This document shows, one piece after another, positions 2,189-60,835 of a stretch of DNA of 64,000 nucleotides. The notes under the pieces were generated by a model. The model searched no databases. It was not told the DNA's origin and saw only the letters and a list, made by a program, of their open reading frames with translations. Both the position numbers and the translations under genes were made by a program. The stretch is from positions 372,001 through 436,000 of the forward strand of contig JBAIAA010000510.1 in NCBI GenBank assembly GCA_037893245.1, given 5' to 3'. The stretch's first letter is position 1; every line of letters begins with the position of its first letter. This DNA comes from Crossaster papposus (taxonomy: Eukaryota > Echinodermata > Asteroidea > Velatida > Solasteridae).

Positions 2189-2404
2189 TCTGTGTAGTCC
2201 CTCCAAGGCCACCATAATTATGGCTTAAAGGTCACAAAACACAACATTTCATATACAAATCACACGGTGACGTCATCACGACATCATCAAAAACTGCTCC
2301 TTAAAGGCGACGTCACATGTTCCACAATGTTGTCATCATGACGTCACCTACATTTCGTCTATAACACATCCCAGAATACCTGTATGTACCAAGTTTGACC
2401 CCAA
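2189..2404. repeat. Link segment between arrays
   Basis: This segment begins at CACTCTGTGTAGTCCCTCCA and continues into a degenerate satellite unit. It is nearly identical to 3058-3270, 19890-20112 and 20650-20880, so it is part of the higher-order unit. Confidence 0.85.
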
Positions 2405-3853: not shown

Positions 3854-4087
3854 GAAGGAATACAATAGCTGTTTCGGCTGTAGTGCCGAAACAGCTAAAA
3901 AACAAAAACAAAAATCTGAAGGAATACAATAGCTGTTTCGGCTGTAGTGCCGAAACAGCTAAAAAAACTTTAACGAAAACAAAAGCTGTTTCGGTGAAAA
4001 ACCGAAACAGCTAAAAAAAAAACTTTAACGAAAACAAAAGCTGTTTCGGTGAAAAACCGAAACAGCTAAAAAAAAAAAAAAAAAAAA
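3821..4087. repeat. Hairpin-poly(A) cassettes (4 hairpins)
   Basis: Poly(A) tracts alternate with four hairpins at 3867-3896, 3931-3960, 3984-4012 and 4039-4067. Stems are 12-13 bp (AGCTGTTTCGGT with ACCGAAACAGCT, or AGCTGTTTCGGC with GCCGAAACAGCT) with loops of about 4-5 bases. The last two lie in a repeated AACTTTAACGAAAACAAA context. Confidence 0.9.
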
Positions 4088-16140: not shown

Positions 16141-17052
16141 AGTGTTTGTGGACAAACACAGAGCTGTTTCGCATGTCTAAAATGACTTTCAATAATTAGG
16201 TGGTGGTCTAAGTGTGTGCCAAGTCTAAAGTCGATCAAATTTAGTGCCAAAGATATATTGGTTGAAAAAAACGTTATGGGGAAAATTAAACCTTTAATGT
16301 GACGTCACATGACACCCGATGATATCATCACAATGTCATCTTAATTTTCGTCTATAACACATCCCGGAATACCTGAATACCAAGTTTGACATAAATTGGA
16401 CTTTTACTTCCAGAGATAGAGGGTCCTAAAAACTCCACCTTTAATGTGACGTCACATGACCCACGATGACGTTATTATGACGATTTTTCCCTTGGCCCTC
16501 CTGGGGATGGTGGTCGAGATGTGTGCTAAGTCTCGAGTCGATCAAATGTACGAAAGTGTCAAAGTCAATAGTCTGAAGACAAACGTGTACAAACCCTATG
16601 GGGAAATTAATTACACCTTTAACGTCACGTCACGTGACCTTGAATGACGCAATCGTGCCGAATTTTGTCCAGGACTATCTGTGAGTGGTGTTCTAAGTGT
16701 ATGCTAGGTCTCAAGTCGATCGAATTCATTAAAGTGTCAAAGTCAACAGTTTGAAGAAAAACGTGTACAAAACCTATGGGGAAAATGTTACCTTTAACAT
16801 GACGTCACGTGACCTTGAATGACGGAATCGCGACGAATTTCTTCTAGGACCGTCCTTGGGTGGTTGTCTTAATGTATGCCAAGTCTCAGGTCGATCGGAT
16901 TTACCAAAGTGTCAAAGTGTATTGGCAGAAAAAACGTGTACAAATCCTATGGGAAAAAAGTGACCAAAAAAAAAAAAAAAAAGAAAAAAAAAAAAAAGAA
17001 AAAAAAAAACTTTAACGAAAACAAAAGCTGTTTCGGTGAAAAACCGAAACAG

Positions 17053-17085
<33 letters not shown>

Positions 17086-18382
17086 TTAACGAAAACAAAA
17101 GCTGTTTCGGCTGAAATGCCGAAACAGCTAAAAAAAAAAAAAAAAGGAAAAAAAAAAAAAAAAAAAAAACTAGACATGTGTTTGTGGACAAACACAGAGC
17201 TGTTTCGGATGTCTAAGATAACTTTCATTATGTGTGTGCCAAGTCTGAAATCGATTGGATTTGTCAATTTTCCCAAGATATATAAGTTGAAAAATACGTG
17301 TACAAATCCTATGGGAAAAACTGCACCTTTAAAGTGACGTCACATGACACCCGATGATGTCATCATGATGTCATCTTAATTTTCGTCTATTACACATTCT
17401 GGAATACTTGCATACCAAGTTTAGCCCCAATCAGACATGTACTTCCAGAGATAGAGGGTCCTAAAATCTGCCCCTTTAATGTGACGTCATATGACCCACG
17501 ATGACGTCATCCTGACGATTTCCCCCTTGGCCCTCCTGGGTATGGTGGTCGAGGTGTGTTCCAAGTCTGAAGTCGATCGGATTTACCAAATTGTCAAATT
17601 CAATAGTCTGAAGAAAAACGTGTACAAAACCTATGGAGAAAATTGAACCTTTAATGTGACGTCACATGACACCCGATGATGTCATAATTACGTCATCTTA
17701 AATTTCGTCTATAACACATCCTCGAATACTTGCAAACCAAATTTGACCCCAATCGGACGTGTACTTCCAGAGATAGAGGGTCTTAAAAACTGCACCTTTT
17801 GTGTAACGTCACATGACCCACGATGACGTCATCATGACGATTTTTCTCCTGGACCTCCTGGGGATGGTGGTCGAGGTGTGTGCTAAGTTTCAAGTCAATC
17901 GGATTCACCAAACTGTCAAATTAAATAGTCTGAAGAAAAACGTGTACAAAACCTATGGGGGAAAATTGCACCTTTAACGTGACGTCACGTGACCAAGAAT
18001 TATGTAATCGCGACGAATTTGTTCTAGGACCGTCCTTGGGTGGTTGTCTAAATGTATGCCAAGTCTCAAGTCGATCGGATTTACCAAAGTGCCAAAGTGT
18101 ATTGGCAGAACAAACGTGTGTAAATCCTATGGGTAAAAACACTGAAAGTGGAAAAAAAAAAAAAAAGGAAAAAAAAGAAAAACTAGATATGTGTTTGTGG
18201 ACAAACACAGAGCTGTTTCGATTGTCTTACTTTCAATATGTGTGTGAGGTGGTCTATGTGTGTGCCAAGTCTGAAGTCGATTGGATTTACACAAGTGCCA
18301 AAGATATATTAGTTGAAAAAAAACGTGTACAAATCCTATGGGGAAAATTGTACCTTAGACCTATGAAAAACATACTGCTGCT
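16141..18382. repeat. TGACGTCA-rich satellite, second block
   Basis: Satellite units as in 4088-10830. 16144-16430 matches 9850-10130, then the match jumps to 9296-9820, then around 17400-17730 to 6410-6740, so this is a mosaic of the first block. Hairpin cassettes with long A-tracts lie at 16965-17170, with stems at about 17026-17054 and 17100-17129. No gene is seen. Confidence 0.9.
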
Positions 18383-21473: not shown

Positions 21474-21887
21474 GAACGAATACAATAGCTGTTTCGGCTG
21501 AAGTGCCGAAACAGCTAAAAAAAACTTTAACGAAAACAAAAGCTGTTTCGGTGAAAAACCGAAACAGCTAAAAAAAACTTTAACGAAAACAAAAGCTGTT
21601 TCGGTGAAAAACCGAAACAGCTAAAAAAAAACTTTAACGAAAACAAAAGCTGTTTCGGTGAAAAACCGAAACAGCTAAAAAAAAAAAAAAACTTTAACGA
21701 AAACAAAAGCTGTTTCGGTGAAAAACCGAAACAGCAAAAAAAAAGAAAAAAAAAAATTTAACGAAAACAAAAGCTGTTTCGGTGAAAAACCAAAACAGCT
21801 AAAAAAAAATAAAAAAAAAAAAAAAAAATCTTAACGATTACAATAGTTGTTTCGGCTGAGTTGCCGAAACAGCTAAAAAAAAAAAAA
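21421..21887. repeat. Array of seven hairpin-poly(A) cassettes
   Basis: After about 50 A residues comes a hairpin at 21487-21516. At least five units of about 55-65 bp follow (hairpins starting near 21541, 21595, 21650, 21710 and 21773), each with AACTTTAACGAAAACAAA, an AGCTGTTTCGG hairpin and an A-tract. A final variant hairpin lies near 21845-21875, where the left arm has one base changed (AGTTG). The cassette ends at the start of repeat R3. Confidence 0.9.
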
Positions 21888-22037
21888 GAGGTAGGGCCAA
21901 CCCCACCTCTTATTTTCTCCAGAAATTAATGTAACTGCGCTTTAATTTCGTCCGCTAACATCGTCGAGCTCAATTCTTGATTCTCAATTAAACAAATTAC
22001 AAAGGGATTTTTATTAAAGTTGTAGTATAATTTTAAT
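21888..22037 (+). repeat. R3 repeat copy 1, left part
   Basis: GTAGGGCCAACCCCACCTCT through AGTTGTAGTATAATTTTAAT matches 59939-60085. The match to the second copy then stops and resumes at about 27712, so bases 22038-27711 are an insertion. Confidence 0.85.
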
Positions 22038-22068
22038 CTAGGGTGACGCGGGAGCGTCACGCCCAACG

Positions 22069-22303
22069 GGTTCGCCCGGCTGGGAGTGGCAGCGCCGCGG
22101 CACCCTTACTTTGCCAGTGCACCGATTTTGCGTTAATTTTGTTATTATTCTTCTTTCTTCAGTCCGACTGGAATAACTCGCGATCGCTCCACGGAATCGA
22201 AAAGAACCCAATAACGAAAATGATCAGGAGATCAAGGGCATGAGTTCTATTGGGACAGAATTTTGATTTTCGACTTCTCAGAGGGGGTTGTCATACGAAT
22301 CTG
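22069..22303 (+). repeat. Direct repeat, left copy
   Basis: GTTCGCCCGGCTGGGAGTGG through GACTTCTCAGAGGGGGTTGT is repeated at 22907-23145 with a few differences. The two copies flank the foldback at 22304-22795. Confidence 0.85.
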
Positions 22304-22795
22304 ATATCACAATTGACCAATTGTGTGTATATCACAATTTAAGAAACTGTACATGCGCAGTAATACCGGCAAAACGGAGGTTGGTCTTGAAAGAGTGAAT
22401 AAACAAGTGTATTGAAAACAAGTGTATGATGTTCTTATTACTTGAATTAGTTGGTTTAAGTTCATTACTTTGTTTTGGGGTAGAATAAGGGAAAAGTCGG
22501 GTTAGGGTACAGAAAGAAAAACAAAACTTGAGATACAATGCAATTAAACTTGCGTCAAATAATAACAATAATAAGAATTGCTGTTAATGCGGTAATATGA
22601 ATTGTTTTTTTCTTGTACCCTAACCCGACTTTTTCCTTTTCCAATCCCAAACTTAAACAACTACTGCAACTAATAAGAACATCATACACTTGTTTATTCA
22701 CTCTTTGAGGGCCAACCTCCGTTTTGCCAGCATTACTGCGCATGTACAGTTTCTTAAATTGTGATATACACACAATTGTTGGTCAATTGTGATAT
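22304..22795. mobile_element. Foldback element with ATATCACAATTGACCAA ends
   Basis: Two arms of about 200 bp are near-complementary (TIR start ATATCACAATTGACCAA; AACTGTACATGCGCAGTAAT in the left arm mirrors the right arm), with a centre near 22560. It is non-coding and lies between the two 235-bp direct repeats. Confidence 0.8.
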
Positions 22796-22906
22796 GTACA
22801 CAATTTAAGAAGGAGACTGGGTTGCAACTGACATGTGAATGAATTTCCTCAGTTCGACGACAGAGGGGGTTGTCATACAAATCTGACCATCTGACATGTG
22901 AGGAGG

Positions 22907-23145
22907 TTCGCCCGGCTGGGAGTGGCAGCGCCGCGGCACCCTTACTTTGCCAGTGAACCGATTTTGCGTTAATTTTCTTCTTCTTTCTTTCTTCTTCAGT
23001 CCGACTGGAATAACTCGCGATCGCTCCACGGAATCGAAAAGAACCCATATAACGAAAATGATCAGGAGATCAAGGGCATGAGTTCTATTGGGACAGAATT
23101 TTGATTTTCGACTTCTCAGAGGAGGTTGTCATACGAATCTGACCA
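22907..23145 (+). repeat. Direct repeat, right copy
   Basis: Second copy of 22069-22303, followed by a TGACATGTGAATTTCCTCAG segment that also precedes it at about 22830. Confidence 0.85.
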
Positions 23146-24124
23146 TCTGACATGTGAATTTCCTCAGTTCGACGAAAACGGCACTAAAAGCATATGTGAA
23201 TGAATGCATTCCTAAGTGAAACTCGGTGCAAGAATGTGTGATATTTCTTGCGTTTTTGTGAGTTTCGGGCGTTTTAGCATTTGCTAGTGTCAGTGCGCAT
23301 GTACTGCGCAATTGTGCGGCGTTGTTTGCAAGTGTGCGCTGCGCAAATGCCGCCAAAACGCTTGCGCACACAACCACAAATTTCAGCTCTGGTAATAATT
23401 TTCGCTGTCTGAATCGCTTCAAATTATCGGCAATTTCGGTCAATTCTGTGTTTCTGTCTAACTTTCTTGCTTCTGCCGCAATTTTGTTTCATTTCCTGCT
23501 GAAAATTGTCAAACTATTTCGCTTTTTTGCAGCAGTCACAGTGTGCCCTTTGTAGTGAAACACAACGGCAACTTGACGCTGGGCAATATCATCACAATCG
23601 CAGACGTTCGCCGATGACAACGACGACGCCGACTCGCAGGAGGGGGGGGGGGAGGTTACAAAAAGTAACAAAACATCCGAAATAACGAAGCTAAAACGTA
23701 TTTTGGCTTCAAAAGTGACCAATTTAGACAATTAAGACAGAAACAACGAAGTAGCAGCTGCTATTGACTAGTGCTATCTCCTCACAGGGTAGGAGCTAAT
23801 GGGTATACGGAGAACAATGTAATGGTGTACAGTACTATATAGTATATACATACTAGTAGCCCGTAGGTCTGTGGCAAGACGCAACACCGTAGGTCTGACG
23901 GCAAAGTAGGCTGATTGGTTTATTTAGAGTCGGGTAGGTTAGTGGCTCGACTAACTGTAACGGGTGGTTCTGTTCTGTGTGGGAACAACGTGTACCGAGG
24001 TGTCAACTTGCATCTATACTCAACAACCGTTTGCTGTTTGTTCGCACATCGGCAAACTTACATCATTTATGTGTTTTTTTGCAGGTTTCCTTCGCTCAAA
24101 CAAAACACAAAACTAAACAAAATA

Positions 24125-24574
24125 ATGGCGCGCAGTGCGGCCGACAAGCGACGGCCACCCAAGGCGTCGCCGCGTCGCCGACTGCGTCGCAAACCCTACG
24201 GGGCGCGGGAGAGTGAGCTGCCACTCGTCGACAGCAGCCAGTCGCAGTACACTAGCGACGCGCACGAGATACAAGCGCACATGCCCAAGTCGCCCTGCGG
24301 CGACAACACCGGGCCGCAGGCGGCGCATCGCGCGCGGGCGCACTCGTGCTCGCGCGATAGGGCGCATAAGATCAATCGGCGTCGGCGCAGTCACTCCGCG
24401 CAGCCACGCGACGACACGCGTCCGGCCCAGCACGTGCAGCTGCTCGATCTACACGCAGTTCATGCACATATGGCTGGACGCGCGTCGCGACCGCATGGCG
24501 CGCATTCCGCATCGAAAGCGACGCCCCAAGTTCCATGCGCCGGCGCCGCTCACCATCACCAAGCGAGAGAGTGA
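24125..24574 (+). CDS. Unrecognised basic GC-rich ORF, 149 aa
   Basis: The start is the ATG at 24125, just downstream of a strong 3' splice-site-like TTTTTTTGCAG at about 24074-24084 and a short A-rich leader, which suggests a 5'-leader intron. The product is rich in Arg, Ser, His and Ala (MARSAADKRRPPKASPRRRL at the N-terminus), with no membrane segment and no motif I recognise. A RESELPLVDSSQSQY segment at residues 30-45 has a relative in the neighbouring short ORF at 24495 (RESELTLCNNSPPQY). The codon third positions are GC-rich, unlike the surrounding DNA. It could be a mobile-element protein; no function is assigned. Confidence 0.35.
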   Translation: MARSAADKRRPPKASPRRRLRRKPYGARESELPLVDSSQSQYTSDAHEIQAHMPKSPCGDNTGPQAAHRARAHSCSRDRAHKINRRRRSHSAQPRDDTRPAQHVQLLDLHAVHAHMAGRASRPHGAHSASKATPQVPCAGAAHHHQARE

Positions 24575-24674
24575 GCTGACACTCTGCAACAACAGCCCGC
24601 CGCAGTACAAGGGCACCTCACTGCCGCACAAACAGAAGTGTGCCGGCAAGTGCAGCCAGCTGCCCTCCGAGTAG
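24495..24674 (+). CDS. Unrecognised short basic ORF, 59 aa
   Basis: An ATG at 24495 opens a 59-residue frame beginning MARIPHRKRR and containing RESELTLCNNSPPQY and two cysteines (KCAGKC). Its layout (MAR start, basic stretch, RESEL..QY, Pro/Lys/Cys tail) parallels the N-terminus of the ORF at 24125, so the two look like diverged repeats. It overlaps the end of that ORF in another frame. No family is recognised. Confidence 0.3.
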   Translation: MARIPHRKRRPKFHAPAPLTITKRESELTLCNNSPPQYKGTSLPHKQKCAGKCSQLPSE

Positions 24675-25519
24675 ACTTGATCCAAGTCGGGATTATGTGG
24701 TAACATTGCTCATGGTCATCCACACTGTGCGCCTCGCGTCACGTCCACGCTTATCAGTAGCGCGCCCTCATGCGCCACCCATGCTCATGTGTGGTTCAGA
24801 AATCCCGACTTGACGGATCTGCCACACGTTTGTACACAACCTATGGGCTCATCTACCGAAAACGGTAGCGGCCAATCAAATTGCAGAATTGTATAAATTA
24901 GCATATATCTGTAATAATATGAACTTTGACCCAGTTGTGTGACGGACATACGTGGACATTGTGATGTACAATGTACATACACATGTGCATAGTGTACATT
25001 ATGTGTAAATGTACAAACGGTTTAATAGTCTTGCTATCGTGTACATTGTCCGGCCGTTAAGTTTGCACTATACCATACTCTAACTAAATAAACGAAGTAT
25101 GGACGCAGTTATTTAATTTGAAAAAGGCATCTAGTGACAGTACTGCCTACCATTCCTCCATAGTCCGTTAGCGGTCTAGCGAGTCCGTACCGATTGGCGG
25201 ACTTATTTGGCATACATCGCCATAACCATGTGATGCGTATGCAAATAATTTATGAATAACTACATATCACCGCGGGGGGTTTGATTGGCCGATCCGTCAA
25301 GTCGGATTTACTGCACTGACATGATGACATCGCGTTGATGCCGATAGCGGAACGACAACCAGATGACGGCGCCTTTTTTCTAAGGCCAACAAAGCACATA
25401 ACTATTCGGCCGGGTTGACGAAAGCAAATTGGTAGTCTTAACTCCATGGTAAGTCCGACTTGGGTCAAGTCTTCCCCTCCGAGTACATTTGCGCGCGCCT
25501 CTACGCGGCATACGAGAAA

Positions 25520-26131
25520 ATGCGCCGACTGCGCACGCACAAGCGGCGTATCGCCCGCCTCTTCAAAGAGGATGCGCAGTGGTGGGCGCACACGGGCGTC
25601 AAAGCGCTGCTGCCGCCGTCGCCGGCCACCATCATCGAGCTCCTCTTCAAAGAGGATGCGCAGTGGTGGGCGCAAACGGGCGCAAAAGCGCTGCTGGCGC
25701 CGCCCGTGACTGTCGAGCAGACGTCGCTCCCAACGCCTGCCATGCAAATCGTACAGTCGCCCGGCGCCGACATGACGATGCTCGGTCACGTCGCTGGCGC
25801 TCGTACGGCGAAAGCCAAAAAGAAGCGCGCGAGCGTTGCAGTGAAAAATCTGCCCAAGCGCGCCGCCACCAGCACATCCGTGCAGCCAAGCAGCGCAGCG
25901 CAGCCACCGCAAAAGCGGGCGCAACCGAAGCGCAAAGAGCAGCGCGAGCGTCTGCGGCAGTTGCTGTCGGCCGCTGTCGACGCCGAGTTTGCCGCTTACG
26001 ACAGTCGCGCCGACAACCGTGACGCGCTCGAAGCGCGCTTGCGTGAGCTTGTTGCCCTGGCGGCGGACGGTGACTGCATTCTGTCGGCGTGCGAAAAACT
26101 TCTTACTGTTCAAACACAAGCTACTAAATAA
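25520..26131 (+). CDS. Unrecognised Lys/Ala-rich ORF, 203 aa
   Basis: The frame is open upstream to 25460 without an ATG; the first ATG is at 25520. A strong donor-like ATG|GTAAGT lies at about 25446-25453. Residues about 14-65 hold a duplicated LFKEDAQWWA.TG.KALL block encoded by an 83-bp tandem repeat. A Lys/Ala/Gln/Pro-rich low-complexity segment (about residues 90-150) is followed by a predicted helical C-terminus (RERLRQLLSAAVDAEFAAYD). Codon third positions are GC-rich. The stop at 26131 is followed at once by AAAAGGAAGTGG and the 26142 inverted repeat. The function is unknown; it may belong to the mobile element that carries it. Confidence 0.4.
   Translation: MRRLRTHKRRIARLFKEDAQWWAHTGVKALLPPSPATIIELLFKEDAQWWAQTGAKALLAPPVTVEQTSLPTPAMQIVQSPGADMTMLGHVAGARTAKAKKKRASVAVKNLPKRAATSTSVQPSSAAQPPQKRAQPKRKEQRERLRQLLSAAVDAEFAAYDSRADNRDALEARLRELVALAADGDCILSACEKLLTVQTQATK
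25557..25710 (+). repeat. 83-bp tandem duplication inside the ORF
   Basis: TCTTCAAAGAGGATGCGCAG begins at about 25560 and again 83 bp on; the two units differ at a handful of positions. The unit length is not a multiple of three, yet both copies are read in the same frame: the aligned homologous part is shorter than the full period and the 16-18 bp linker differs. Confidence 0.75.
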
Positions 26132-26141
26132 AAGGAAGTGG

Positions 26142-26307
26142 ACAAGTCAAAGGTAAAATGCTCTGAGAGCATAATAAAAGGGCCAACGGGTTTCCAGTTA
26201 AAGTAAAATGCTGTGCGAGCATTCCAGCTAAAGTAAAATGCTGTCTCAGCACTGCACTCGCGTCAAAAAGGAAGTGGACAAGAGAATGCCAACGGGTTTT
26301 ACCTCTT

Positions 26308-26341
<34 letters not shown>

Positions 26342-27711
26342 CAAGCGCAGACCGAGCGAAAGGTCAGCAGGTGTGGGCCACTAGTTCGGTGTGGGCGGGT
26401 CGAAACCGTTGCCCTCCCACCGAGCAGTAGATGTTAACTGGTTAGCACCGTACCGTAATCACTGCATTTATTTGCATACACTAATGCTGGTGGGTCATCG
26501 TAAGATAGCCATTACGGCTTGGATGGAGTTCAATTTTGGTTTTGCGTTGCTATAAAGAGTACTATCACCAATGTTCGATATACGCTGCGCGCTCTCCTGC
26601 ACTGACGACACTGTCTGAGAGGTCCTAGGTGCCGCTATGCACGCTCTTCTACTCTGGCGCATACTAGCTACGCCCATAATTCTAACCTACACCCTCCAGC
26701 TAGCCCAAGACACTTGACAGCCTTCGCTCCTCTTTGCATGCACATCTGCGCCGGCGTACTTTCAGCATCTGTCACTACACCTAATGCATGAGCGCCTGTG
26801 CCTGCATAGGGTTGCACTTCATACACTGCAACAGGTCATCACGTCAGTTGACAATGACAATTCTACTTAGCACCGCCTTCTTCCCCCGCCTTTAGACCAC
26901 CGTACGTAGCTGTGCCTTGCGCGCATTTGTCTCACAAACGCTCGCAAATACACAGCGAACGCACGCTTTCTCTAATTCATCCGACACGTGTGCCGGATTA
27001 AAAAAAAAACGATGTCACCTTGCTTCAATACTCAACAACTTTTGCACGGAAACATGTGAGCGCCAACAGCAGCATACTTACTACTTGATACACAGCGCGC
27101 ACAGAGCGGGTAAGAAGTGAACTTCACCGTGGGCCCACAGCGCGCGTCGAGATTATCCGTTAATAAGCCCATTATAAGCTTATTTATAAGCTCGTGCTCA
27201 TCCGCCCTATCGCGCGAGCACGAGTTATTGTTTACGCGCCGTCCATTTCGTGCCAGTTATTCAGCTACGTGACCACCGACCGCGTTACATAGCCGGTGAT
27301 CGCCTTCCCATTCTCTTGCGTTGCGGCCTTCTCTCTCTCGCAGAGAGTGCAGCGCTTTCCCCTCCAATGCGTGTGTCTTTCTCTCATTGGCTCATTGAGT
27401 CGGTGCTTTAGACTACCCGATTGTGAGTCCATGCTGCTATGGGAGGAGGGGGCGAGGTGGGAGGGCAACGGTTTCGACCCGCCCACACCGAACTAGTGGC
27501 CCACACCTGCTGACCTTTCGCTCGGTCTGCGCTTGTTGGGGGGGTAAGAGGTAAAACCCGTTGGCATTCTCTTGTCCACTTCCTTTTTGACGCGAGTGCA
27601 GTGCTGAGACAGCATTTTACTTTAGCTGGAATGCTCGCACAGCATTTTACTTTAACTGGAAACCCGTTGGCCCTTTTATTATGCTCTCAGAGCATTTTAC
27701 CTTTGACTTGT
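26142..27711. mobile_element. 1.57-kb foldback with arms of about 270 bp
   Basis: ACAAGTCAAAGGTAAAATGC at 26142 is mirrored by the right end at 27711. The arms run inward through GGGCCAACGGGTTT, GCGTCAAAAAGGAAGTGG, GCGCAGACCGAGCGAAAGG and GGTGTGGGCGGGTCGAAACC to about 26430 and 27460. A 30-base C run (about 26310-26339) in the left arm faces only about 7 Gs in the right arm. The interior is non-coding, but about 26985-27085 resembles 23985-24060. Confidence 0.85.
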
Positions 27712-29500
27712 TAGAGCATTGCGATTCGTCATAAATTAATGTGTGGTTTTGGGTATTTTTTTATTTTTTTATTTTAATAGATTTAGACGCTGTTGTCATT
27801 GCATTTTATTCTGTTCAATATCAAACGTTATGGTTAATTGTTTTATTTAAATAACCAAGAGTGTTAAAACAAACAACAACAAAAACCCAAATTTGTGTTT
27901 TTTAATTCAATTTCGAACGCCCCGTGAAACGAATTTTACGATTTTAGGAGGAATCAGAACGGTATACAAATTGCAATAATACTTGATCTCGAATAGAATT
28001 CATTGCTAACTATTTTTTTTAATTGAGAAATGAGCTAGGCGATGTTCGGGGACCAAAAGTAAAGTGTCGTTATAAGAATGTGTAAGGCAAGTGTTAAAAT
28101 AACTGGGGAAGATATAATATCCTGAATGAAAAACTATGTAAATATGGTAATATTTAAGAATTTGTCTCCCTGATTGTTCAGCTATAGCTTAACGTCAATG
28201 GTCTTGTGGCGATGTTCAAAAATATAACGTTACATGTATTTGTTTTTTTGTTTTTAATACAGTAAGGCCTACCTTGAAGTAGTGTTCTTAGTCAGAGCTC
28301 AACCGAAGTAGAAATCTTAGTGACTGAAGTTGAATGTCACCTAAAAATAATACAAAGACAACTTTAAGTCATTTGTTGTAACAAAGATGGTGACAAAATG
28401 GGGGGAAACAAGACGAGTCCGTGGATGCAAAGAAGAAATATAGTACGTTCGACTTTTGCCCCTACCGTTTTAAATAAGACTTAAGAGTTTGCATGGTGGA
28501 AAAATCAATAGGATGGGAGGTTTGCGGTAACACCATATGGGTTGTGGATGGTGCTGAGTTCAGTGGACCATTGAGGTATGCGATTCTGGAATAGGATACG
28601 CGGCAGATTTTGACAGGATGCTAACAGTAACAGATGCTTGGTAGGATGCTGGGGTAGGCTGTTTGTGCTCATTAAAGCATGTCAGAAGAATGGTGGAACA
28701 GCTTGAACATCAAGCACAGTACCAAGGGTATACATGTATAGGGGACCCTAAGTACGTGAACAGCCTCTTACAACCATTTACGTGGACAGCGGAGCAGAGA
28801 GTTTAATATACTCTGACACAACCTACTCTATTCACGAGTTTTGTTTAAAACATACTTTTGTAAGAACCACTAATCAAGAAGGAGTACAAACATTAATTTC
28901 ACGTCAAGACTTGAAAAGCCATCTGTCATAGAACCTTACCTTGTAAATCTCGTTCTTGCGTTCAGGTCTCTCTCTGGCTGTCCTGTCGAAGGCGAAGATG
29001 AGTTGCGGTCGTTGTGAGGAATGAAGCGCGCGCTTCTGCCTTAAAACTTGCCAGTGATTTCCTAAGCAGTGACTGAGGAACGTTGCCCGGTTTCTGATTG
29101 GCCCCTAGTGCGCTGTCAATTACACACCACTGACTCGTTTAATATTCATGAACGGGAGTTAATGTTAATGTAGTTGCAGTCACCGACACTGTGAAATGAA
29201 CACATCTTATTAGTGGACATTTTATAGACGTCGATGACATGTTCAAACGCGTGTCCCCTAGTGCGCTGTCAATCACGCACCACTGACTCGTTTGAAATTT
29301 ATGAACGGGAGTTATGTAAATGAAACTTTCAGTCACCGACACTGTGAAATGAACACATCTTATTGGTGGACGTTTTATAGACGTTGATGACGCGTTCAAA
29401 CGCGTGCTTTGTGATTGACACTCACAACTGACCAATGAAAGGAAGACAGATGAGATTCGATGGTTTGCATGGCGAAAAGGCAATGGAGGTTCGAACTTAG
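27712..29500 (+). repeat. R3 repeat copy 1, right part
   Basis: It resumes the match to the second copy: 27721-28465 parallels 60101-60835 and 28466-29290 parallels 63195-64000. Landmarks are GATTCGTCATAAATTAATGT, AGTAAGGCCTACCTTGA, GGTAACACCATATGGGTTGT and GAAGCGCGCGCT. There is no convincing open frame. The type is not recognised; it could be a transposon body or a duplicated non-coding segment. Confidence 0.85.
29105..29405 (+). repeat. Tandem duplication of about 155 bp
   Basis: Two units start at TAGTGCGCTGTCAAT..CAC (about 29108 and 29258), each running through AGTCACCGACACTGTGAAAT to GTTCAAACGCGTG. The same tandem begins at about 63807 in R3 copy 2. Confidence 0.85.
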
Positions 29501-34190: not shown

Positions 34191-34746
34191 TTTCATTTGT
34201 AATTTATGACCATTTGGTAAAATAAAATAAAGTCAAAATTTTGTCAATTTTTATAAAAATGAATATTATGTCGCAAAAAAATAGTTATATACATGGCTGC
34301 AAAGCCCACAGCTTTCAATTATATATAATAGAGCTCCATAGCCCCTCTGGTTCTGGAGATTATGACATGTTTGCATATTGATTAATTCCTTACACAACTT
34401 AGAAAACGGCGCTCTATGCAGCGCGCGTAGGCCGCCAATGCGGGCGCCCTCTGATGTACGCCGTAGACCACGCGCGCTATGACCACGCTTACTCACATCG
34501 GCCTAATAATCTCTCGGAAAATTCTAAACAGAATTGTGTCGAATTGCATGCGATTATGCGAGTTAGCCAAGACGACCTATTCGAAGGTCATGGCTAACCC
34601 CTTAAAATTTAAAAATGTTCCATATTGTTAATTTTGGCCAATTTTTTAAATAAAAATGCAAAGCTATAACCCATTACAATTGTTTGTGGTTTTTTTAAGT
34701 ACATTTTTGGTCATTTTAAATAAAATTGAAAGTAAACAAAGAAATT

Positions 34747-34820
34747 GGCAAGGCAGGACTCGAACCTGCGCCTTCCAGAATTCTGGTCCGGCGCTCTACC
34801 AACTGCGGAGCTATCTTGCC
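34747..34820 (-). pseudogene. tRNA-like pseudogene
   Basis: On the minus strand GGCAAGATAGCTC..GTTGGTAGAGC forms the acceptor and D arm with an A box, CCGGA/TCTGG an anticodon stem, and GCAGGTTCGAGTCCTGC a perfect T arm with the B box. The acceptor pairs over only six bases, position 33 is C rather than U, and the loop CCAGAAT would read AGA (Ser) although there is no long variable arm. It is therefore a decayed tRNA or tRNA-derived SINE head rather than a working gene. Confidence 0.65.
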
Positions 34821-35613
34821 CTATACCGGTGGTTTCCTAAATTGATATCTTTGTTCGAGGGCATTAGTCAGAAGTCATAAATACCAGAATGCCGTGTAGC
34901 CAGGGATCACACCTAATTTTACGATACAACCTTGGAAGTGACATTGTGGGGATTACTCATTGAGGATACGACTTTTTATCTAATAATACACAACTAAACC
35001 ATAAGGGAAACTGAATTTGCATATTTTTTAATATGCATATTTACATAGTCAGTTTCTCTTGTGGTTTATTTGTACATTGATTTTACTTTTTTTCTTCTAG
35101 ACGACAAGCCAGATGAAATAAACAAGGGGGGACCGGTACAATCTTTAATCCGTGTAAGCTTTTTATAAGGTCAAATAAAGAATATATCGTTTCTCATCCT
35201 CATGTGGATCAATTATTTGCTGCAACAAAGGTTTTTAAACAAATAAAAATTGTCAAATATCTTCACATCGGCACTTTTCTACTAATCCTACCAATTCGGA
35301 GGGGTGGGGTTAGGGGAGGGGCGGAGGGTTGAGGAGGGATGGGGGAGAGAGTTTTAGGGTGGCCACGTAACCAGAAATGTTTTCCTGTTTTGATTAACCC
35401 ATTTTCACGGTCCCAATTTGGCTTTCATCAGTGTCCCAATTTTGCTTTTTAAATCTCCATCGCGTTGCAATCTACAACTGTGCACTCCCTGGCTATAAAG
35501 TCACCGATATATGAATTGAGTAACATGGCATACAATAGAAGACTGACGGGTTTCTGAAGACAGTATAACACCCATCTATAGGTAGTGATTTGTAAATAGC
35601 GTAGCCATGTAAC
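34821..35613. other. No gene; one 74-nt hairpin at 34995-35068
   Basis: TAAACCATAAGGGAAACTGA at 34995 pairs with TCAGTTTCTCTTGTGGTTTA at 35049-35068 (18 of 20 positions), around a TATGCATA-containing loop. A G-rich stretch (GGGGTGGGGTTAGGGG) lies at about 35300-35345. No coding signal. Confidence 0.6.
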
Positions 35614-36560: not shown

Positions 36561-38081
36561 TAGCGATTACTTCCTGCTGACCGTAGTCTTTTTCGAGGTA
36601 AAGCATTTCTTTCAGACCTGTTCTTCGTCAATGTTCATTGTAGCCGCAATGTGACGGCCCCTTTTCCCATGCTTTTTTCAATAAAACATCTGAGATTCAA
36701 AAAATTAGTGTTTAATTTTCTTTCATTCTGTAAGTTTCATCCATTAGTAATAAACTGTTTTTCATGCGTATGAGCGCAGCGAAGTAGCATGACAAAATCA
36801 TTTTGGCTAGGGGAATATTTTTTAGAGGGGATTATAAGGTAGATGAACCATCTTGGTAGACAAATCTTCTGGTTTAAGGGGATATTTTTTGAAAGGAAAT
36901 ATAAAGAGAACAGGACATTTCGGTTAGGGGAATTATTAATTAAAGAAATTTAATATGTACATGTACCGGTATCTTTTATATTAAAATAATGACAAAGGCC
37001 ACTATAACAGTGTAAAACTTTAAAATTAAAAATGGGTGGTATTAATATACTATTTAGGATAAGTGATGATAAACAATAAAGTATACAGAAGTAATTAGTA
37101 ATGGGATGCAATGAGTTATTTTGTGTGTGTCCTAAATAACGACTATCTATTACTTTTCTGCGTTTGGATCGTAGTACTCTGATGAATGATTATGTACAAG
37201 TTAAATGTGTTCTCAAAAATTAAATTTAAAGCTTTAACATATACGTGTCTATGTATGATCAATATCTTCTGTTGACTATTAATTAACATCTAGCTTCAGA
37301 AGTCTGATGGATTGTGTCTTTCAATTCTAGGGTTATTGTTTTCTAGATTCTATTAAAATGAATCAAGTATATAAACATAGATACGGATATACAGAATACG
37401 AAAATAGGATTTAAAACTGGTTAGTGTCCTTACAAATTGTTTAAAGGAAAAATATATATATATATATTTTAATTAGTGGAATGCGGCTTAATGAGTGCAG
37501 ATCTGTTTCTGGAGAAAGCAAAGATGTCAAATTGGAGTGGCGCCTATATCTAGAGGTATTATTATTAACACTGTTAGTCGTCGTAAAGTTCTAAAAGGAA
37601 TAGAGAAACATTGACTATCATTGTATGACAATTTGATCACATTTTAATCAAAATGCAAGGCTAGCCCTCTTACAGTTTAAATGTTTTGCAAAAAGTCAAA
37701 TGTTAGCCAATTAAAAACAAAAATGCAACACTAAACCCTTATAATGTTACCTCTATTTCCAATATACCGGACTTGTGCCAACCAGTAGTATTAGGTTTGT
37801 AAAAACGGAGTTTTAACTGCAGACTTCAATCACACTTAATAATAAAAAGATACACACAATAATTCAGTTTCATGACAAGTTCTTTAATTGTCAACATGTC
37901 TTGTGCATACAATAATTTACAATCGAAACCAAAAAAAATCAAAAATCAGCTCAATGGCTGAATGCTTATCCATAGTACATGTACAATGTTATATAAAGGT
38001 ATACAATACAAATACATGTACACAAAAAAATGAGAAAATTGCACATCAGTTTGTAGTCTTAGTTGCAAGACGTCTAATCGC
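36561..38081. other. No gene recognised
   Basis: AT-rich DNA with a short (TA)n tract near 37450; no supported open frame. Confidence 0.55.
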
Positions 38082-40006
38082 GGTCCGCCACCGGCTCGGT
38101 CCGCCACCGGCTCGGTCCGCCACCGGCTCGGTCCGCCACCGGCTCGGTCCGCCACCGGCTCGGTCCGCCACCGGCTCGGTCCGCCACCGGCTCGGTCCGC
38201 CACCGGCTCGGTCCGCCACCGGCTCGGTCCGCCACCGGCTCGGTCCGCCACCGGCTCGGTCCGCCACCGGCTCGGTCCGCCACCGGCTCGGTCCGCCACC
38301 GGCTCGGTCCGCCACCGGCTCGGTCCGCCACCGGCTCGGTCCGCCACCGGCTCGGTCCGCCACCGGCTCGGTCCGCCACCGGCTCGGTCCGCCACCGGCT
38401 CGGTCCGCCACCGGCTCGGTCCGCCACCGGCTCGGTCCGCCACCGGCTCGGTCCGCCACCGGCTCGGTCCGCCACCGGCTCGGTCCGCCACCGGCTCGGT
38501 CCGCCACCGGCTCGGTCCGCCACCGGCTCGGTCCGCCACCGGCTCGGTCCGCCACCGGCTCGGTCCGCCACCGGCTCGGTCCGCCACCGGCTCGGTCCGC
38601 CACCGGCTCGGTCCGCCACCGGCTCGGTCCGCCACCGGCTCGGTCCGCCACCGGCTCGGTCCGCCACCGGCTCGGTCCGCCACCGGCTCGGTCCGCCACC
38701 GGCTCGGTCCGCCACCGGCTCGGTCCGCCACCGGCTCGGTCCGCCACCGGCTCGGTCCGCCACCGGCTCGGTCCGCCACCGGCTCGGTCCGCCACCGGCT
38801 CGGTCCGCCACCGGCTCGGTCCGCCACCGGCTCGGTCCGCCACCGGCTCGGTCCGCCACCGGCTCGGTCCGCCACCGGCTCGGTCCGCCACCGGCTCGGT
38901 CCGCCACCGGCTCGGTCCGCCACCGGCTCGGTCCGCCACCGGCTCGGTCCGCCACCGGCTCGGTCCGCCACCGGCTCGGTCCGCCACCGGCTCGGTCCGC
39001 CACCGGCTCGGTCCGCCACCGGCTCGGTCCGCCACCGGCTCGGTCCGCCACCGGCTCGGTCCGCCACCGGCTCGGTCCGCCACCGGCTCGGTCCGCCACC
39101 GGCTCGGTCCGCCACCGGCTCGGTCCGCCACCGGCTCGGTCCGCCACCGGCTCGGTCCGCCACCGGCTCGGTCCGCCACCGGCTCGGTCCGCCACCGGCT
39201 CGGTCCGCCACCGGCTCGGTCCGCCACCGGCTCGGTCCGCCACCGGCTCGGTCCGCCACCGGCTCGGTCCGCCACCGGCTCGGTCCGCCACCGGCTCGGT
39301 CCGCCACCGGCTCGGTCCGCCACCGGCTCGGTCCGCCACCGGCTCGGTCCGCCACCGGCTCGGTCCGCCACCGGCTCGGTCCGCCACCGGCTCGGTCCGC
39401 CACCGGCTCGGTCCGCCACCGGCTCGGTCCGCCACCGGCTCGGTCCGCCACCGGCTCGGTCCGCCACCGGCTCGGTCCGCCACCGGCTCGGTCCGCCACC
39501 GGCTCGGTCCGCCACCGGCTCGGTCCGCCACCGGCTCGGTCCGCCACCGGCTCGGTCCGCCACCGGCTCGGTCCGCCACCGGCTCGGTCCGCCACCGGCT
39601 CGGTCCGCCACCGGCTCGGTCCGCCACCGGCTCGGTCCGCCACCGGCTCGGTCCGCCACCGGCTCGGTCCGCCACCGGCTCGGTCCGCCACCGGCTCGGT
39701 CCGCCACCGGCTCGGTCCGCCACCGGCTCGGTCCGCCACCGGCTCGGTCCGCCACCGGCTCGGTCCGCCACCGGCTCGGTCCGCCACCGGCTCGGTCCGC
39801 CACCGGCTCGGTCCGCCACCGGCTCGGTCCGCCACCGGCTCGGTCCGCCACCGGCTCGGTCCGCCACCGGCTCGGTCCGCCACCGGCTCGGTCCGCCACC
39901 GGCTCGGTCCGCCACCGGCTCGGTCCGCCACCGGCTCGGTCCGCCACCGGCTCGGTCCGCCACCGGCTCGGTCCGCCACCGGCTCGGTCCGCCACCGGCT
40001 CGGTCC
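38082..40006. repeat. 16-bp minisatellite, about 120 perfect copies
   Basis: The unit GGTCCGCCACCGGCTC repeats for about 1.92 kb with no variant unit that I can find. Each unit has three CpGs and about 81% G+C, inside AT-rich DNA. Because 16 is one more than a multiple of three and no frame holds a stop, all six frames stay open: plus frames read RHRLGPPPARSATGSV in rotation, minus frames RWRTEPVADRAGGGPS. The four long ORFs over the array (up to 719 codons) are products of this arithmetic and not genes. Confidence 0.97.
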
Positions 40007-41076: not shown

Positions 41077-44000
41077 GTATGACTTAGGAAGGTAGACTGC
41101 CAAGAAGTTGAGTATGCCACAGAGTTCTAGATTGGGCAAGCAAAATTAGGACAAAACTAAAAGTCTGCATTGTTTAGGGGTTCACTATTACGCCAATGTT
41201 TTTCATACAATACCACCTCACAACCTTTCTGCAATACTGGAACGTATCTCTTTCAGGTGGTATTGTATGAAAAGGGTATTTTAATAAAATTGATAATCGA
41301 TTTGGACTTTGGTCTTAGATCATCAAAGAGAACACATTTCCCGGAATCTCTGACCTTGACCAAACTGTAATCTATCAAACTACATGATTAGATTTTCGAA
41401 ATATACTTGTAATCATTTGGAATGAACTATATGTTCCATGTATTATAGTCACATTGTAGGGCAGGTAAAAGAAAAGGGTTGTAATTACTTAGTTTGTATG
41501 ATTTAAAAAAACAAAACAAAAAGAAATAAACGAACAATACGTTTTGTCTTATATTATGAGTTTATGGTAGGTTACTGGTACCAACAAAATTCAAAATTAT
41601 CATCTCTGATAATTAACATGGATTATGAGCAAGTAGCAAATGAATAAAGGAAAATATAAAACTCTGACTGTAATTTTCTGAAATATTTCTCTCGCTCGCT
41701 TCTAGAAAGCGTATCGTTGCCATCACAACACCAGGCCAGAAAAGCAGTCCACCAATTCAGGTCGTCGTGTGGCATCAAAACACACCAACTGCCCAGCTGA
41801 TATGGTTGTCTTGATCAAGAAATCAGTGTACGAAGGGCGCACCCTCAGCAGGTACTATTTAACAGTTATTTGGAAAGAAGCAGGGGGATACTATAACGTG
41901 AAGATATTAAATGTGATATCCCTTGAAGGAGCTATGTGACACATCATCAATAGCTGCGTTTATACCAGTACCACAATATTGCCAAGGCACGTTAGTAAGC
42001 AGTTCTTTCTGGACCATCAGAAAAAACCCTGTACAGCAATTTTGCGGTATTTTATGGAACTTATGAAATTCCAGGTATTAACCTCATTAATGCTACAGCT
42101 GTAGAACAACTACATGTAGAGATATGAGGTAATATATGTTGATTTGCCGTGAATTTTAATGTTGCGGAGGAAAGAAGAGCCAAATTGGAAGCATGTGGAT
42201 AAATTTACACGCAGTTTTAGCATTATTCAGCATCTACATGTTCTTAGTCGCCTTTATGAGTAATATTATTGTTATTTCCAACAGGGGCAAGGATGTCCAT
42301 CTCCCTCTGTACCCTGCTGAGATTACATTGACCTACCGGCACAATCACCAGGTAAAGTGCGCTGATGCGCTAAAATTCCGGGATGTCTCGGAGGAGGCGA
42401 AGAAGCATCTCATTGCACTTTTTAAGCGGAAGTATGGCCCGACCCAGGCGGTGGATATCCTGAAGTATGAGCTCCAGATGCTGCACGGCGACGAGTACCA
42501 CATCAAGGCTGCAGACAGGGCAGTTTGTCCTGACATCCAGTTTGCCCACAGGTTGTTCATAAACTTTTAGTTACTAGAAGGAGACTTCTTGTGATACTCA
42601 AACTTCCAACATGAAGTAAATCAGGAGAGGCCAAATTATTTAATTTACATTTATTTCTCATGAAGGAAAAAAGAGCGAATGAGACAATGAATTAGAAAAA
42701 ATATGAATTTATAATTATTTTGAAAGTCAAGATCCATAATGACATGAATATCCTCGCATTGTCAATGCGATCATGATGTGTGATGTCATACTTAACGACT
42801 TTCCCGTTTCTTTTGCAAATATTTTACAAAAATCATCTCTTTTCTCAATTTTAATGGTAGAGCAGAGTTTCTTTTTATGGGAAGACATGTAAATATATGT
42901 TACATATATATTTTGGACAAACTGTTCTTTTGTATTATAACAGGGAAATTAATAAATGATCATATTTTGAACCTTTTTTGTACACACCTTATAAAAAAAT
43001 TGTTTAGGTATGACACCACACATCATGGCCACATTGCCAATGCGAGGATCTACATATAATTAGTGGTCACAACTTTTAAAAATACATATCTTGTTGATTT
43101 ATTGTCTGATTGTGCTGAAACTTCCACTGTAAATTCTTTTGCATTTTTCAAATTTTCTCTGAAGAGTTCATTTCCCTTTAAAATAAGTGGACTGTCTCAC
43201 TCGCAACAAATTGCTGAAAGTAAATTGAATGTACTTTTGTTACACATTGCCCCCAAGCGCTAACCAAGTTTGGTTACAAATGGAGCTTAAAAGTGAAAGT
43301 TTCCCATTGACTAGATGTTGTATGGAGAAATCAACAGACGGACTGACAGAAAAACCTCTCTTACGGACAGACAGATGGATTGAGACAAGCAGACAGACAG
43401 ATTTTGGCTGCCGCAGTCTTGCTTCCTTTTTCATGGAGTAGGAAAACCACCATATCATCGGCCTTCAATTAAATGAAACATTTGTTCTTTTCAGATTGTA
43501 CCGAAAGGTATTTAAGGAGGAGTTTGGCGAGGCTACGGGGGAGGGGATGCTGGAGAGCCTGGGGGACTACGTGAGTACCTACAACATTGAGGCAGGCTCC
43601 AAGTGTATGGCCATGGACATCACAAGTGGCGATAAACTGGTGATGGCCATTTGTACGCCACTCATGAAGCGGGTCCATGAAGAGATCCGGCATGCATCAG
43701 AGCTTGTCTTCATGGATGCCTCTTCAAACATGGACAGACACGGATGCAGTGTTTTTCTCCTGCTTACACATAGTTGTGTGGGAGGACTACCCCTAGGTGT
43801 CCTCATCACCACAAGTGAAAGTGAGGCCGTGAGGGAGGCAGCCCTCAAGCTCTACTGCTCCATCCTTCCCCAGAGCTGCTTTGGAGGTAGAGGGGTACAA
43901 CGCCCTATGCTTTTCATGACGGATGACAGTGCAGTGGAACAAAATGCCATTCGTCATGTATTCCCTACTAGTCAGGTTCTGCTGTGCGTGTTTCATGTAC

Positions 44001-47000
44001 TGCAAGCCACATGGAGGTGGCTGTGGAATGGAAAGAACCAAATCCCCAAAGAGCAGCGTGCCAATCATCTTCAACATCTGAAGCGACTGATCTATGCCAG
44101 AACTGTAGAGGAGCTGGAGCAGCTTTACCAGCAGAGTCTGCAAGATTCAACTCTCTCTGAGTAAGTTGACTACGCTATAGAGGGACTTGCATACTGTTTT
44201 CAAACTCTATGCACACTTTACGAACCAAGGTTGATATTTACGACCTGGGAACTGTGTTATGTTGTACACACAATAACTGTCCATAGCTTTGAGGGAGGAC
44301 AGCCAAATTCATACCTTCATAAATTCAAAGGTACATCTCTAAAAGACTCGGGTCAAGTTTGAATAGGCCCATAGGGGTCAAATTAGACAGCGGTCAATGA
44401 ACTTTTTATGAAAAGTTGTTATTGCGTTATAAAGTAGTATTCCTACCCCAGATAAGTTGCTTAAAGCGGAACAATGAGAGAAACATAGCCAAACAAATTT
44501 GAGGAAAATCTAAGAAGAAAGTTATGAATGACCTAATGAAATAAACAGTGAAAATCACTGTCATTTTTAGACACATTGAAAATGACGCCATGGGTCTGTG
44601 ACGTCACATCCCCACTATTCACCAATTGTCTTGTATATTATGATATGCAAAATTTCCAATTTTACCTCAGGAAACTCTTAATCCCTTTGCCCAAGTTCTA
44701 TTGATGTTAACATGTTTTTGCATGTGTGAACTAATATGAAATAAGTCCCTTTCTTTGATAAATATGAAAAGGTGACTTTTTGATAACAATTTGTATTCAA
44801 AATAAATAGTTATTATATATACAATAACAAACTTATCAATTTTTTTTTTTTTTAAGTTTGTGAAAGAAAAGGACTGATTCCATGAAGTGGAGATGAAGCA
44901 TAATGTTGACACTGATTGCAACTTTTTTCACTTAAAACAGGAAATTCAAGAAGCATCTGAGGGCCTATTATGGAAGGAAGGAACAATGGGCAATTGCCTG
45001 TCGCCAGGAACTACAAGTACGCGGGAATAACACCAACAATTTCTGTGAGGCGGCCATGCGTGTGCTGAAGGATAAAATCCTGGAACGCACAAAGGCGTTT
45101 AGTATCCCACAGCTGGCAGACTATTTGTCCACCTTTCTGCAGGACTATTACCAACAGAGGCTTATTGATGTAGCCAACGGACGTCTGCAGAATGTCATCA
45201 CTTCTAGATATATGCCCCAGGACAAATCAATCAGGCATCAGGACATCAGACAGGTAATCAAAGCAAACATTCTCGATGACTTCTGACAAGTTAAAAGCAC
45301 TTTGACAAGTTAGAAAAGTACAGTATGAATTCTTCTGACATGCTTTTGATAAGGGGTCAGTATTTGAAAATCGAAAGCTGATATATCGATGTAAAAATAA
45401 TTTGTTCCATGTATAACTGAAGAAGTGTTCATTGAATCAACGTCAAACCGGAGTAGATCTGAACATTGTATTACACATTTGTATTTTATTGCTTTACAAT
45501 ATGTTTTAATTACAGCTTTCAACCAGCCAGTTCATGGTGACCAGTCAGACATCAAAAGACATAGAGTATGATGTTGACATGGAATTAGGCCATTGCTCTT
45601 GTTATGCTGGCAAGACAGGAGGCCCATGCAAACATCAGGGAGCAGTGGTAAAACATTTCAATGTTGCATCTACAAATTTCATCCCGGTTAATGACCCACA
45701 GAAAAGACTTCTTCTCTTCAAGATTGCAACAGGTACATTACATGTTTTGAAGGTACAACATTACATTTTTAGATGGTGCGGAGGCATCATGTATTTGGGA
45801 TGTCCATTCGTCCGTTCATGCCACTTTCGTAATCACCATATCTCAAGAACCGTTTAATATTTGGACATCAAACTTGGTACTAGTGTGCGTCACTGGGAGG
45901 AGATGACCAGATCAGATTTGAGGATATGTTGGTCAAAGGTCAAAGGGGGAAAAATACATAATAACAATAGCTCTCATGGCAAGGCGGAATGCACTGAAGG
46001 ATACTTGTGCGGAGGATGGTGGCGTACCATTCGACTGTGCAGTGTGCAGTCGGATGGTGGCGTACCATTCGACTGTGCAGTGTGCAGTCGGATGGTGGCG
46101 TACCATTCGACTGCGCAGTGTGCAGCAGTCAAATAACTCTAGTTTCTTGAATTTTGATTTGTAGCAGAGTCCAGGCAAGTAGAAGTGTCGCAGTCAAGTG
46201 GTCTAATCACTTGACTGTAAATGTTGTGGGTTTGATCCCCAGCACGGCACTTATGTCCTAAAGCAAGGCATTTTATCTACATTGCTTCACCCCACCCAGG
46301 TGTTATGGGTACCCAGTAGGATGTTCATCATTGTGGCTGGATTAGCTTATGTGCGCCAAATGGGTTGCCTCACTTGCCTGGCTGGAATGCTCCATTGTGG
46401 AGTGGAGAGTGTGCACTTTGAATCCAACGACAGTTATTATTATTATTATTATTAATACCATCCTAATGCAAACATGTTGTTTATCAAAGATGGGCTGTCT
46501 GTTACTCATTATTTTCGTGATGCACAGGCCCAAGACTTGTCCTTACATATTTAAGACCTATTATTAGCCAACATGCAATTGTTAAATGACCCCAATATTC
46601 CTTCTATAATTTTCCACAAAAGGAAAAAGTAGTGTTCCATCAGGATTCTTTGATGGATTAATGACCCATCCCTCATCTACCTCGAGAGATGAGATTTCCA
46701 TGGATGCTGACTCAGTAGAACACGTAATTGACGAGGTGGAACCTATTCCCACAAGCCAAACTGATCCTAATCCTGCTGTTGCAAGTCTGCGTGCACAGGC
46801 ATCTGCTCAGATTTTGATCTACGAGGCTCAACAAGACCATCACAAGCATCTGCCAGCACCAATGTCCTTATTTGTTTTTAAATAGTCCCATCATTGTTTT
46901 GCTGGCTTTAGTCGCATGTTTGCCGGTCCTTTTTGCATGCTTTCAATTTCATAACATGCCATCCATGAACTGTATACGCTTGTTACTAATTGCATTTTTT

Positions 47001-59938: not shown

Positions 59939-60835
59939 GTAGGGCCAACCCCACCTCTTCTCCTCTTCTCCATAAATTCATTGTAACTGCGCTTTAATTT
60001 CGTCCGCAAACATCGTCGAGCTCATCTCTTGATTCTCAAATTCTAAAATTAAAAAGGGGTTTCATTTAAGTTGCAGTATAATTTAAATTATAGTTTGTGA
60101 TTCGTCATAAATTAATGTGTGGTTTTGGGTTTTTTGTTTTGTTTTTATTTTAGATTATAATAGATTTAGACACTGTTCTCGTTTTGTTCTGTTTACTATC
60201 AAACGTTATGGTAAATTTTTGAATTTAAGTGACCAAAGAGTGCTAAAACAAACGACCAAAAACACCAAATTATTTTTTTTTAGTTCAATTTTGAACGCCA
60301 CGTGAAACGAATTTCACGATTTTAGTAGGGATCAGAAAGGTATACAAATTGCAATAATACTTGATATCGAATGGAATTGAGAATTGAGCCTAGGCGATGT
60401 TCGGGAACGAAAGTAAAGTGTAGTTATAATAATGTGTGATACAAGTGTTAAATAACTGGGAAAGATATAATATCCTGAATGAAAAACTCTGTAATATTTA
60501 AGAATGTGTCTCGCTGGTTGTTCAGCTGTAGCTCCTCGCAAGATACGTCAATGGTTTTGTGGCGATGTTAAACAATAGAACGCTTTTTGTTTCTGAATAC
60601 AGTAAGGCCTACCTTGACTTAGAGCTCAACCGAAGTAGAAATCTTAGTGACTGAAGTTGAATGTCACCTGAAAATAATACAAATAAAGCAAATACCTTTG
60701 ATCACAACACTTTAAGTCATTATTTTGTTTGTTTGTAACAAAGAGGGTGAGAAATAGAGGGGAAACAAGACGAGTTCGTGGATGCAAAGAAGGAATATAG
60801 TACGTTCGACCGACTTTTGCTCCTACCATTTTAAC
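59939..60835 (+). repeat. R3 repeat copy 2, left part
   Basis: It matches 21888-22037 and then 27712-28465 without a break at about 60085-60100, giving the empty site for the 5.7-kb insertion. It is interrupted at 60836. Confidence 0.85.

Follow-up and report, generated by a model that had tools for sequence, protein, structure and literature searches.

Evidence for a recently amplified, non-autonomous Helitron with an unusual 3' palindrome in the sea star Crossaster papposus

Helitrons are rolling-circle transposons, whose canonical form begins with 5' TC, ends with 3' CTRR and has its insertion site between A and T (PMC4067079). Helitron2 elements are described as having 5' hairpins and asymmetric inverted repeats (PMC3627910), opposite-orientation self-insertion has been proposed for FoHeli elements (PMC5148889), and Helitrons carrying VTD and OTU deubiquitinases are known (PMC9741609). 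In this paper we describe a 5,674-bp insert in a 64,000-nucleotide stretch of the C. papposus genome (assembly GCA_037893245.1, contig JBAIAA010000510.1, positions 372,001 to 436,000), hereafter the window. The insert had been read from the sequence alone as a bounded mobile element of undescribed type, rich in guanine and cytosine (GC), with open reading frames (ORFs) and an inverted repeat. There is little doubt that it is a recently amplified, non-autonomous member of a Helitron family, because longer copies with the same ends code for Rep and a PIF1 helicase; relative to these copies the window copy is internally deleted.

The insert occupies 22037-27710 on the + strand, with ends set by comparison with other copies. 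The left flank, 21891-22037, aligns to 59939-60088 and the right flank, 27719-28277, to 60095-60617, where the insert is absent, and this uninterrupted paralogue at 59939-60617 bears out the precise bounds given by the sequence-only reading, except that start and end were each one base off. The same reading was right about the GC content (0.45-0.56 per kb across 23-28 kb, against 0.29-0.45 for most other window DNA, the exceptions outside the insert being an array at 38-40 kb and 59-60 kb), about the nested foldback at 22304-22795 and about the 26142/27711 inverted repeat, which spans 1.57 kb and has arms of 174 and 89 nt that are 100% complementary, with a poly-C/G tract of unequal length between them. 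Both flanks were read in 16 copies: TC follows A in 15 of them and g in one, and T comes directly after GACTTG in 14, the final G being missing in two (L025 and L026). No target-site duplication (TSD) was evident by eye in these 16 copies or against the empty paralogue, which is compatible with insertion between A and T. Both the 5' TC and the A-T insertion site of canonical Helitrons were thus found.

The host genome that was searched comprises 1.02 Gb. For the exact 24-base 5' end there are 455 places (232 + 223), close doubles such as C79:720071 and 720143 included, and a reversed-pattern control gave 0. A first look with the ORF segment 25484-26141 produced 499 candidates, and all 40 that were scored, the window's own place counted, are 99-100% identical. 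An exact 23-mer of the LFKEDAQWWA unit, of which the window copy has two, occurs 621 times (305 + 316; reversed control 0). Positions of the 5' end were listed for the first 100 of the 455 places; at 59 of the 78 listed 5' ends on contigs C1-C133, LFKEDAQWWA DNA lies downstream on the same strand at a distance of at most 12 kb (41 at 2.5-4.6 kb, like the window, eight at 0.7-1.4 kb and ten beyond), and 19 of the 78 are without the unit. Wherever the 3' part of a locus was read, the 3' module, 26096-27711, comes after the 5' and ORF segments. As had been proposed, the ORFs and the inverted repeat form one element that recurs genome-wide, the ORF segment and the foldback occurring together at many loci, and the insert is one family and no chance mosaic. 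Judged by its sequences, the family appears very young and recently copied. One place was fetched more than once in L001/L007/L009, L002/L010, L003/L011, L004/L012, L005/L013, L006/L024, L008/L014, L016/L038, L018/L046, L020/L049 and L029/window, and L011/L013, L010/L015 and L063/L064 have equal flanks (duplicated places or haplotypes). Because of these repeated places and equal flanks, the row counts for 3' module loci, 5' ends, frameshift and junction rows, and foldback regions are not all independent.

The identity of the family is given by its long copies. In L011, a 6.6-kb copy, 2.48 kb replaces window 25544-26095 and codes for the end of a PIF1-type helicase (Pif1_2B 4.5e-8, UvrD_C_2 7.3e-7). 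The helicase of L012 matches PIF1 (7.6e-16) and Pif1_2B (2.3e-7) in Pfam; its PDB matches are structures of PIF1 (to 4.1e-34) and Helraiser, a Helitron (7lcc, 1.4e-12). In the parent copy of L012, exact 5' ends lie upstream at C79:720071 and C79:720143, and the 3' end is near C79:737011. Directly upstream of L012 lies L059, which matches PF14214 Helitron_like_N (4e-20) and PF20209 DUF6570 (1.7e-15); a PDB search with this Rep part (L059:2-3085) gave no match up to E 0.1. GALHIHMKV is in one frame of L059 and ALNYYLSSYIGKGEK in the other, and we take these to be the HUH (HxH) and catalytic tyrosine motifs. A copy on contig C19 has all the parts in order on one strand within about 10.1 kb (5' end 1451380; LFKEDAQWWA units 1452120 and 1452204; Rep 1454823; L022 helicase frame from 1457000; 3' end near 1461488). 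The Rep segment L059:2100-2800 gave 18 genome candidates, all of which were scored; 16 match near the full query with identities of 94-100%, at least 98% in 15 cases, and the other two match in part. Since the exact 5' end is found at 455 places and this Rep at 18, most copies are without the latter. The Rep and PIF1-type helicase that mark the Helitron superfamily are thus both present in a long copy with the same ends, with motifs in two frames, and the window copy is without the region.

Several points weigh against this assignment. Transposition itself was not observed, and the 59 of 78 proximity count has no control for chance. The C79 copy is probably dead, because its two Rep motifs do not share a frame and an inverted insert (L012:632-918, an inverted copy of L011:5827-6113) lies beside the break between helicase frames 1-804 and 870-3518. 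No intact autonomous copy was found among the regions read, outside of which C79:720170-727700 lies, and the genome has a single exact match to the 27-base DNA of the HxH motif. In a genome search with PF14214, 150 of 273 first-look candidates were scored and the family's Rep was not among these 150, other Helitrons scoring higher. At the termini, A precedes 20 of the 21 5' ends read, L066 having g; the 3' terminus is CTTG in 14 of 16 copies and CTT without the G in L025 and L026, not the canonical CTRR; and the left and right ends of the 16 copies were paired by position and strand, most interiors being partly read. The PF14214 search also turned up other Helitron_like_N loci, some with open frames of more than 3,000 amino acids (for example C890:1154973 and C553:1388597), which are apparently different Helitron families.

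Like Helraiser, which is of bat origin, and canonical animal Helitrons, the family has Rep and a PIF1-type helicase, starts with TC at the 5' end, inserts between A and T with no TSD to be seen, and has a 3' hairpin, which is weak here. It differs from canonical animal Helitrons in CTTG instead of CTRR, an added 5' hairpin, a long 3' inverted repeat and a weak C-terminal region like those of ubiquitin-specific proteases (USP) or UCH. A 6-bp stem 15 nt from the end (z -1.25) may correspond to the canonical 3' palindrome of 16-20 nt, which lies about 11 nt from the end. With Helitron2, Helentrons and FoHeli it shares a 5' hairpin, a short asymmetric inverted repeat and a non-CTRR 3' end (PMC3627910, PMC4067079, PMC5148889), and it is conceivable, although on balance we think it unlikely, that the family is a Helentron or Helitron2 and not a canonical Helitron. 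The 5' hairpin (z -3.06) and the asymmetric pair CCCAACGGGTT/AACCCGTTGG, with its 3' member upstream of the 3' hairpin, are the features given for Helitron2 in PMC3627910; however, the target is A-T and not the TT of Helentrons, the family starts with TC, the inverted repeat lies 24 nt from the 5' end compared with 0-2 in Helitron2, so that its spacing is different, and no endonuclease fused to Rep/helicase was found as a Pfam family match in the protein parts read (C79:720170-727700 is not among these). Because canonical and Helitron2 features are mixed and CTRR is absent, we place the family in the Helitron superfamily only, neither as a canonical Helitron nor as a Helentron. Of the sequence-only reading, the bounded GC-rich mobile element with ORFs and an inverted repeat stands, whereas the undescribed type falls: the pieces in the window reach no family cut-off, yet longer members with the same ends code for a Helitron Rep and PIF1, so the family belongs to a known kind of transposon.

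The ORFs of the window copy exist; the novel proteins seen in them do not hold up, the frames being shifted, interrupted and without sign of selection. The frames look like relics because of a shared 4-bp frameshift, a nested terminal inverted repeat (TIR) element in the frame and no sign of purifying selection. The 4-bp insertion in the MARS frame is found in 34 of 44 rows and absent from ten, one of which (L017) is rearranged; in L011 and L026 the MARS frame is unbroken as far as the nested element. The nested TIR element is present in 45 of 47 left-junction rows (L010 and L015 instead have a larger deletion) and in all 46 right-junction rows, no empty site occurs among the rows read, and GTAAGT at 25448, which had been proposed as a splice donor, sits within it (24672-25474). 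Across 30 rows, the distinct substitutions in 25484-26128 are 9 synonymous, 25 non-synonymous and 0 stop against a neutral expectation of 10.4, 22.4 and 1.2; this gives no sign of purifying selection, at low power, because the copies were chosen by search as most window-like. The window ORFs gave no match reaching cut-off in Pfam (DUF7438 at 0.22 for the LFKEDAQWWA frame), PHROG or NCBIfam, and PDB gave none above cut-off for the 25442-26128 frame, the only one searched there. It is improbable that the MARS and LFKEDAQWWA ORFs code for an accessory protein with a function in the element or stem from a captured host gene that is under selection: the lack of a stop in 30 of 30 rows of 25484-26128 and the continuous MARS frame of L011 and L026 favour this, and the frameshift in 34 of 44 rows, the nested element in the frame, the near-neutral substitution pattern and the lack of any above-cut-off match in Pfam, PHROG, NCBIfam and PDB oppose it. 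A viral origin of the window ORFs found no support in the PHROG, NCBIfam, Pfam, PDB and IMG/VR searches; in IMG/VR eight stretches fit a peptide pattern, of which 0 were confirmed.

Four copies have both Rep and listed units (one on C19, two on C79 and one on C114). In these the first LFKEDAQWWA unit lies 2.7-3.5 kb before the Rep query, and in two of them the spacing, by calculation, puts unit and Rep in one reading phase. Three of the four (C19:1451380, C114:337537 and C79:618801) have their nearest unit about 0.75 kb from the 5' end, which leaves no space for the MARS part of about 3 kb; in the fourth, C79:720071, it is 6.3-6.4 kb away, the stretch between being unread. This arrangement makes the start of the Rep/helicase gene, just 5' of Rep, the probable source of the LFKEDAQWWA half, and the MARS half is probably a segment added or retained in the amplified lineage.

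The inverted repeat is at the 3' end in all 11 regions measured (nine distinct places), with arms of differing length: eight regions have best arm alignments of 154-279 nt, L011 and L013 of 420 and 418 nt, and L012 of 599 nt. The left arm of L011 mirrors window 27312-27711 and the right arm of L012 mirrors window 26141-26747. The loop between the arms is inverted in L041, L047 and L048, as would be expected of recombination between inverted arms. In the window copy the left arm starts with the 3' terminus of the element itself, and an A precedes it at 26142; this would be expected of a copy inserted in opposite orientation. We infer that the foldback arose by self-insertion and re-symmetrisation of the arms: a copy probably landed near another copy's 3' end in opposite orientation and then lost its far end, and the arms may later have been re-formed from one side or the other in different copies. 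A poly-C tract lies at 26309-26339 in the left arm, the poly-G of the right arm is much shorter, and the length varies among copies. The arms contain internal 30-nt repeats, which we take to resemble those of FB elements. These repeats and the perfect 174- and 89-nt arms at 26142-27711 are what could make the 1.57-kb inverted repeat a foldback or TIR transposon of the FB, Galileo or Mutator-like element (MULE) type with the 5' part as unrelated cargo, a reading we consider very improbable, as the left arm adjoins 26096-26141 in loci with the upstream side read, the far boundary of the element is the shared 5' TC end, no TSD was seen by eye around the foldback, long copies carry Rep/helicase, and no lone foldbacks bounded by TSDs were noticed among the loci read, though no search was aimed at them. 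A Foldback/Galileo-type TIR element has long inverted repeats at both ends and a TSD, and here the arms are at the 3' end only.

The helicase frame runs on into a weak match to UCH (PF00443), at 0.0028 in L012 (whole frame) and 0.07 in L011, which is below cut-off. This tail has stretches that, presumably, correspond to a Cys box and a His box. As in the deubiquitinase-carrying Helitrons of PMC9741609, a deubiquitinase-like region is in frame with the Rep/helicase protein; unlike these, it is weakly UCH/USP and not VTD or OTU, and no AP endonuclease match was found in the parts read. A literature search turned up, besides PMC9741609, a Helentron paper with OTU and no USP-type deubiquitinase in Helitrons, which is no proof of absence in print. 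That the 3' terminus of this lineage lies within a long palindrome that was repeatedly re-symmetrised (arms of about 260, 420 and 600 nt, loop inverted in some), together with a USP-type deubiquitinase on Rep/helicase instead of OTU or VTD, is a proposal we regard as tentative and rather doubtful.

Other features of the window were also noted. At 38081-40006, within this AT-rich window, there is a perfect 16-bp tandem array of CGGTCCGCCACCGGCT, which has 120 copies with 100% matches and a GC content of about 80%; it is open in several frames because its period is not a multiple of 3. A MULE-type transposase frame (PF10551, 2.5e-7) lies at 43442-44161, within 43442-45857, and a frame at 45510-45857 looks SWIM-like by eye. 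The - strand has a collagen-C1q protein frame at 58885-59742 (C1q 6.8e-23, collagen 1.7e-13), which suggests that the host is an animal, and a tRNA-Ser(AGA) at 34745-34821 (ARAGORN and Rfam). A-rich arrays of a hairpin unit, AGCTGTTTCGGTGAAAAACCGAAACAGCT, recur at 21475-21808, 3922-4077 and 16984-17160 with periods of about 53-75.

Table 1. Coordinates of the element, its parts and its empty paralogue in the window.
Feature	Position	Strand	Remarks
Whole copy, very probably a non-autonomous Helitron	22037..27710	+	5' TCTAGGG ... GACTTG 3', between A and T; empty paralogue, 16 two-ended copies, 455 exact 5' ends
5'-terminal hairpin GTGACGC-GGGA-GCGTCAC	22043..22060	+	DNA fold of 22036-22080: -14 kcal/mol, z -3.06
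Short asymmetric inverted repeat, 5' member GCCCAACGGGTT	22061..22072	+	Partner AACCCGTTGGCCC at 27661-27673; read from sequence
5' subterminal unit	22069..22304	+	Second occurrence 22905-23142, 96%
Nested self-complementary foldback, like a miniature inverted-repeat transposable element	22304..22795	.	Not present at the corresponding point in L011
Apparent relic frame MARSAADKRR...	24125..24574	+	Out of frame by 4-bp insertion; continues in another frame to 24671
9-bp TSD CCCTCCGAG	24663..24671 (left), 25475-25483 (right)	+	Read from sequence
Nested TIR transposon, ends TAGACTTGAYCCAAGTC	24672..25474	.	Interrupts ORF frame; own TIRs, 9-bp TSD
Apparent relic frame with two LFKEDAQWWA units	25484..26131	+	Such a unit found 5' of Rep in long copies
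3' module, first bases AAACTTCTTACTG	26096..27711	+	Common to window-like copies and longer variants L011, L012, L013, L022
Left arm of 3' foldback	26142..26421	-	Element's own 3' end inverted, begins at terminus
Right arm of 3' foldback	27456..27711	+	Is the element's 3' end
3' subterminal hairpin ATGCTCTCAGAGCAT	27681..27695	+	6-bp stem, 15 nt from 3' end; DNA fold z only -1.25
Paralogous repeat without insert	59939..60617	+	Empty site near 60088-60095; alignment within window

Rep/helicase from the few long copies (18 Rep places) probably nicks at the 5' TC end, a single strand would be peeled off as far as the 3' hairpin and CTTG end, and this strand would be inserted between A and T; in this way the Rep/helicase of the long copies would move the deleted copies in trans. 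Repeated re-symmetrisation of the arms, if true, is what one would expect of a displaced single strand that folds back and then primes or repairs itself in rolling-circle transposition, and strand fold-back may have left a natural record in the variable 3' palindrome. The USP/UCH-like tail, if confirmed, would be a third deubiquitinase type among those reported in Helitrons. An element of unknown kind is thereby resolved, very probably, as a Helitron that is ordinary in kind and unusual in its 3' palindrome, and a family that appears so young, with short and long members having common ends, would be useful for studying gene loss, passenger acquisition and the termination of transposition in Helitrons.

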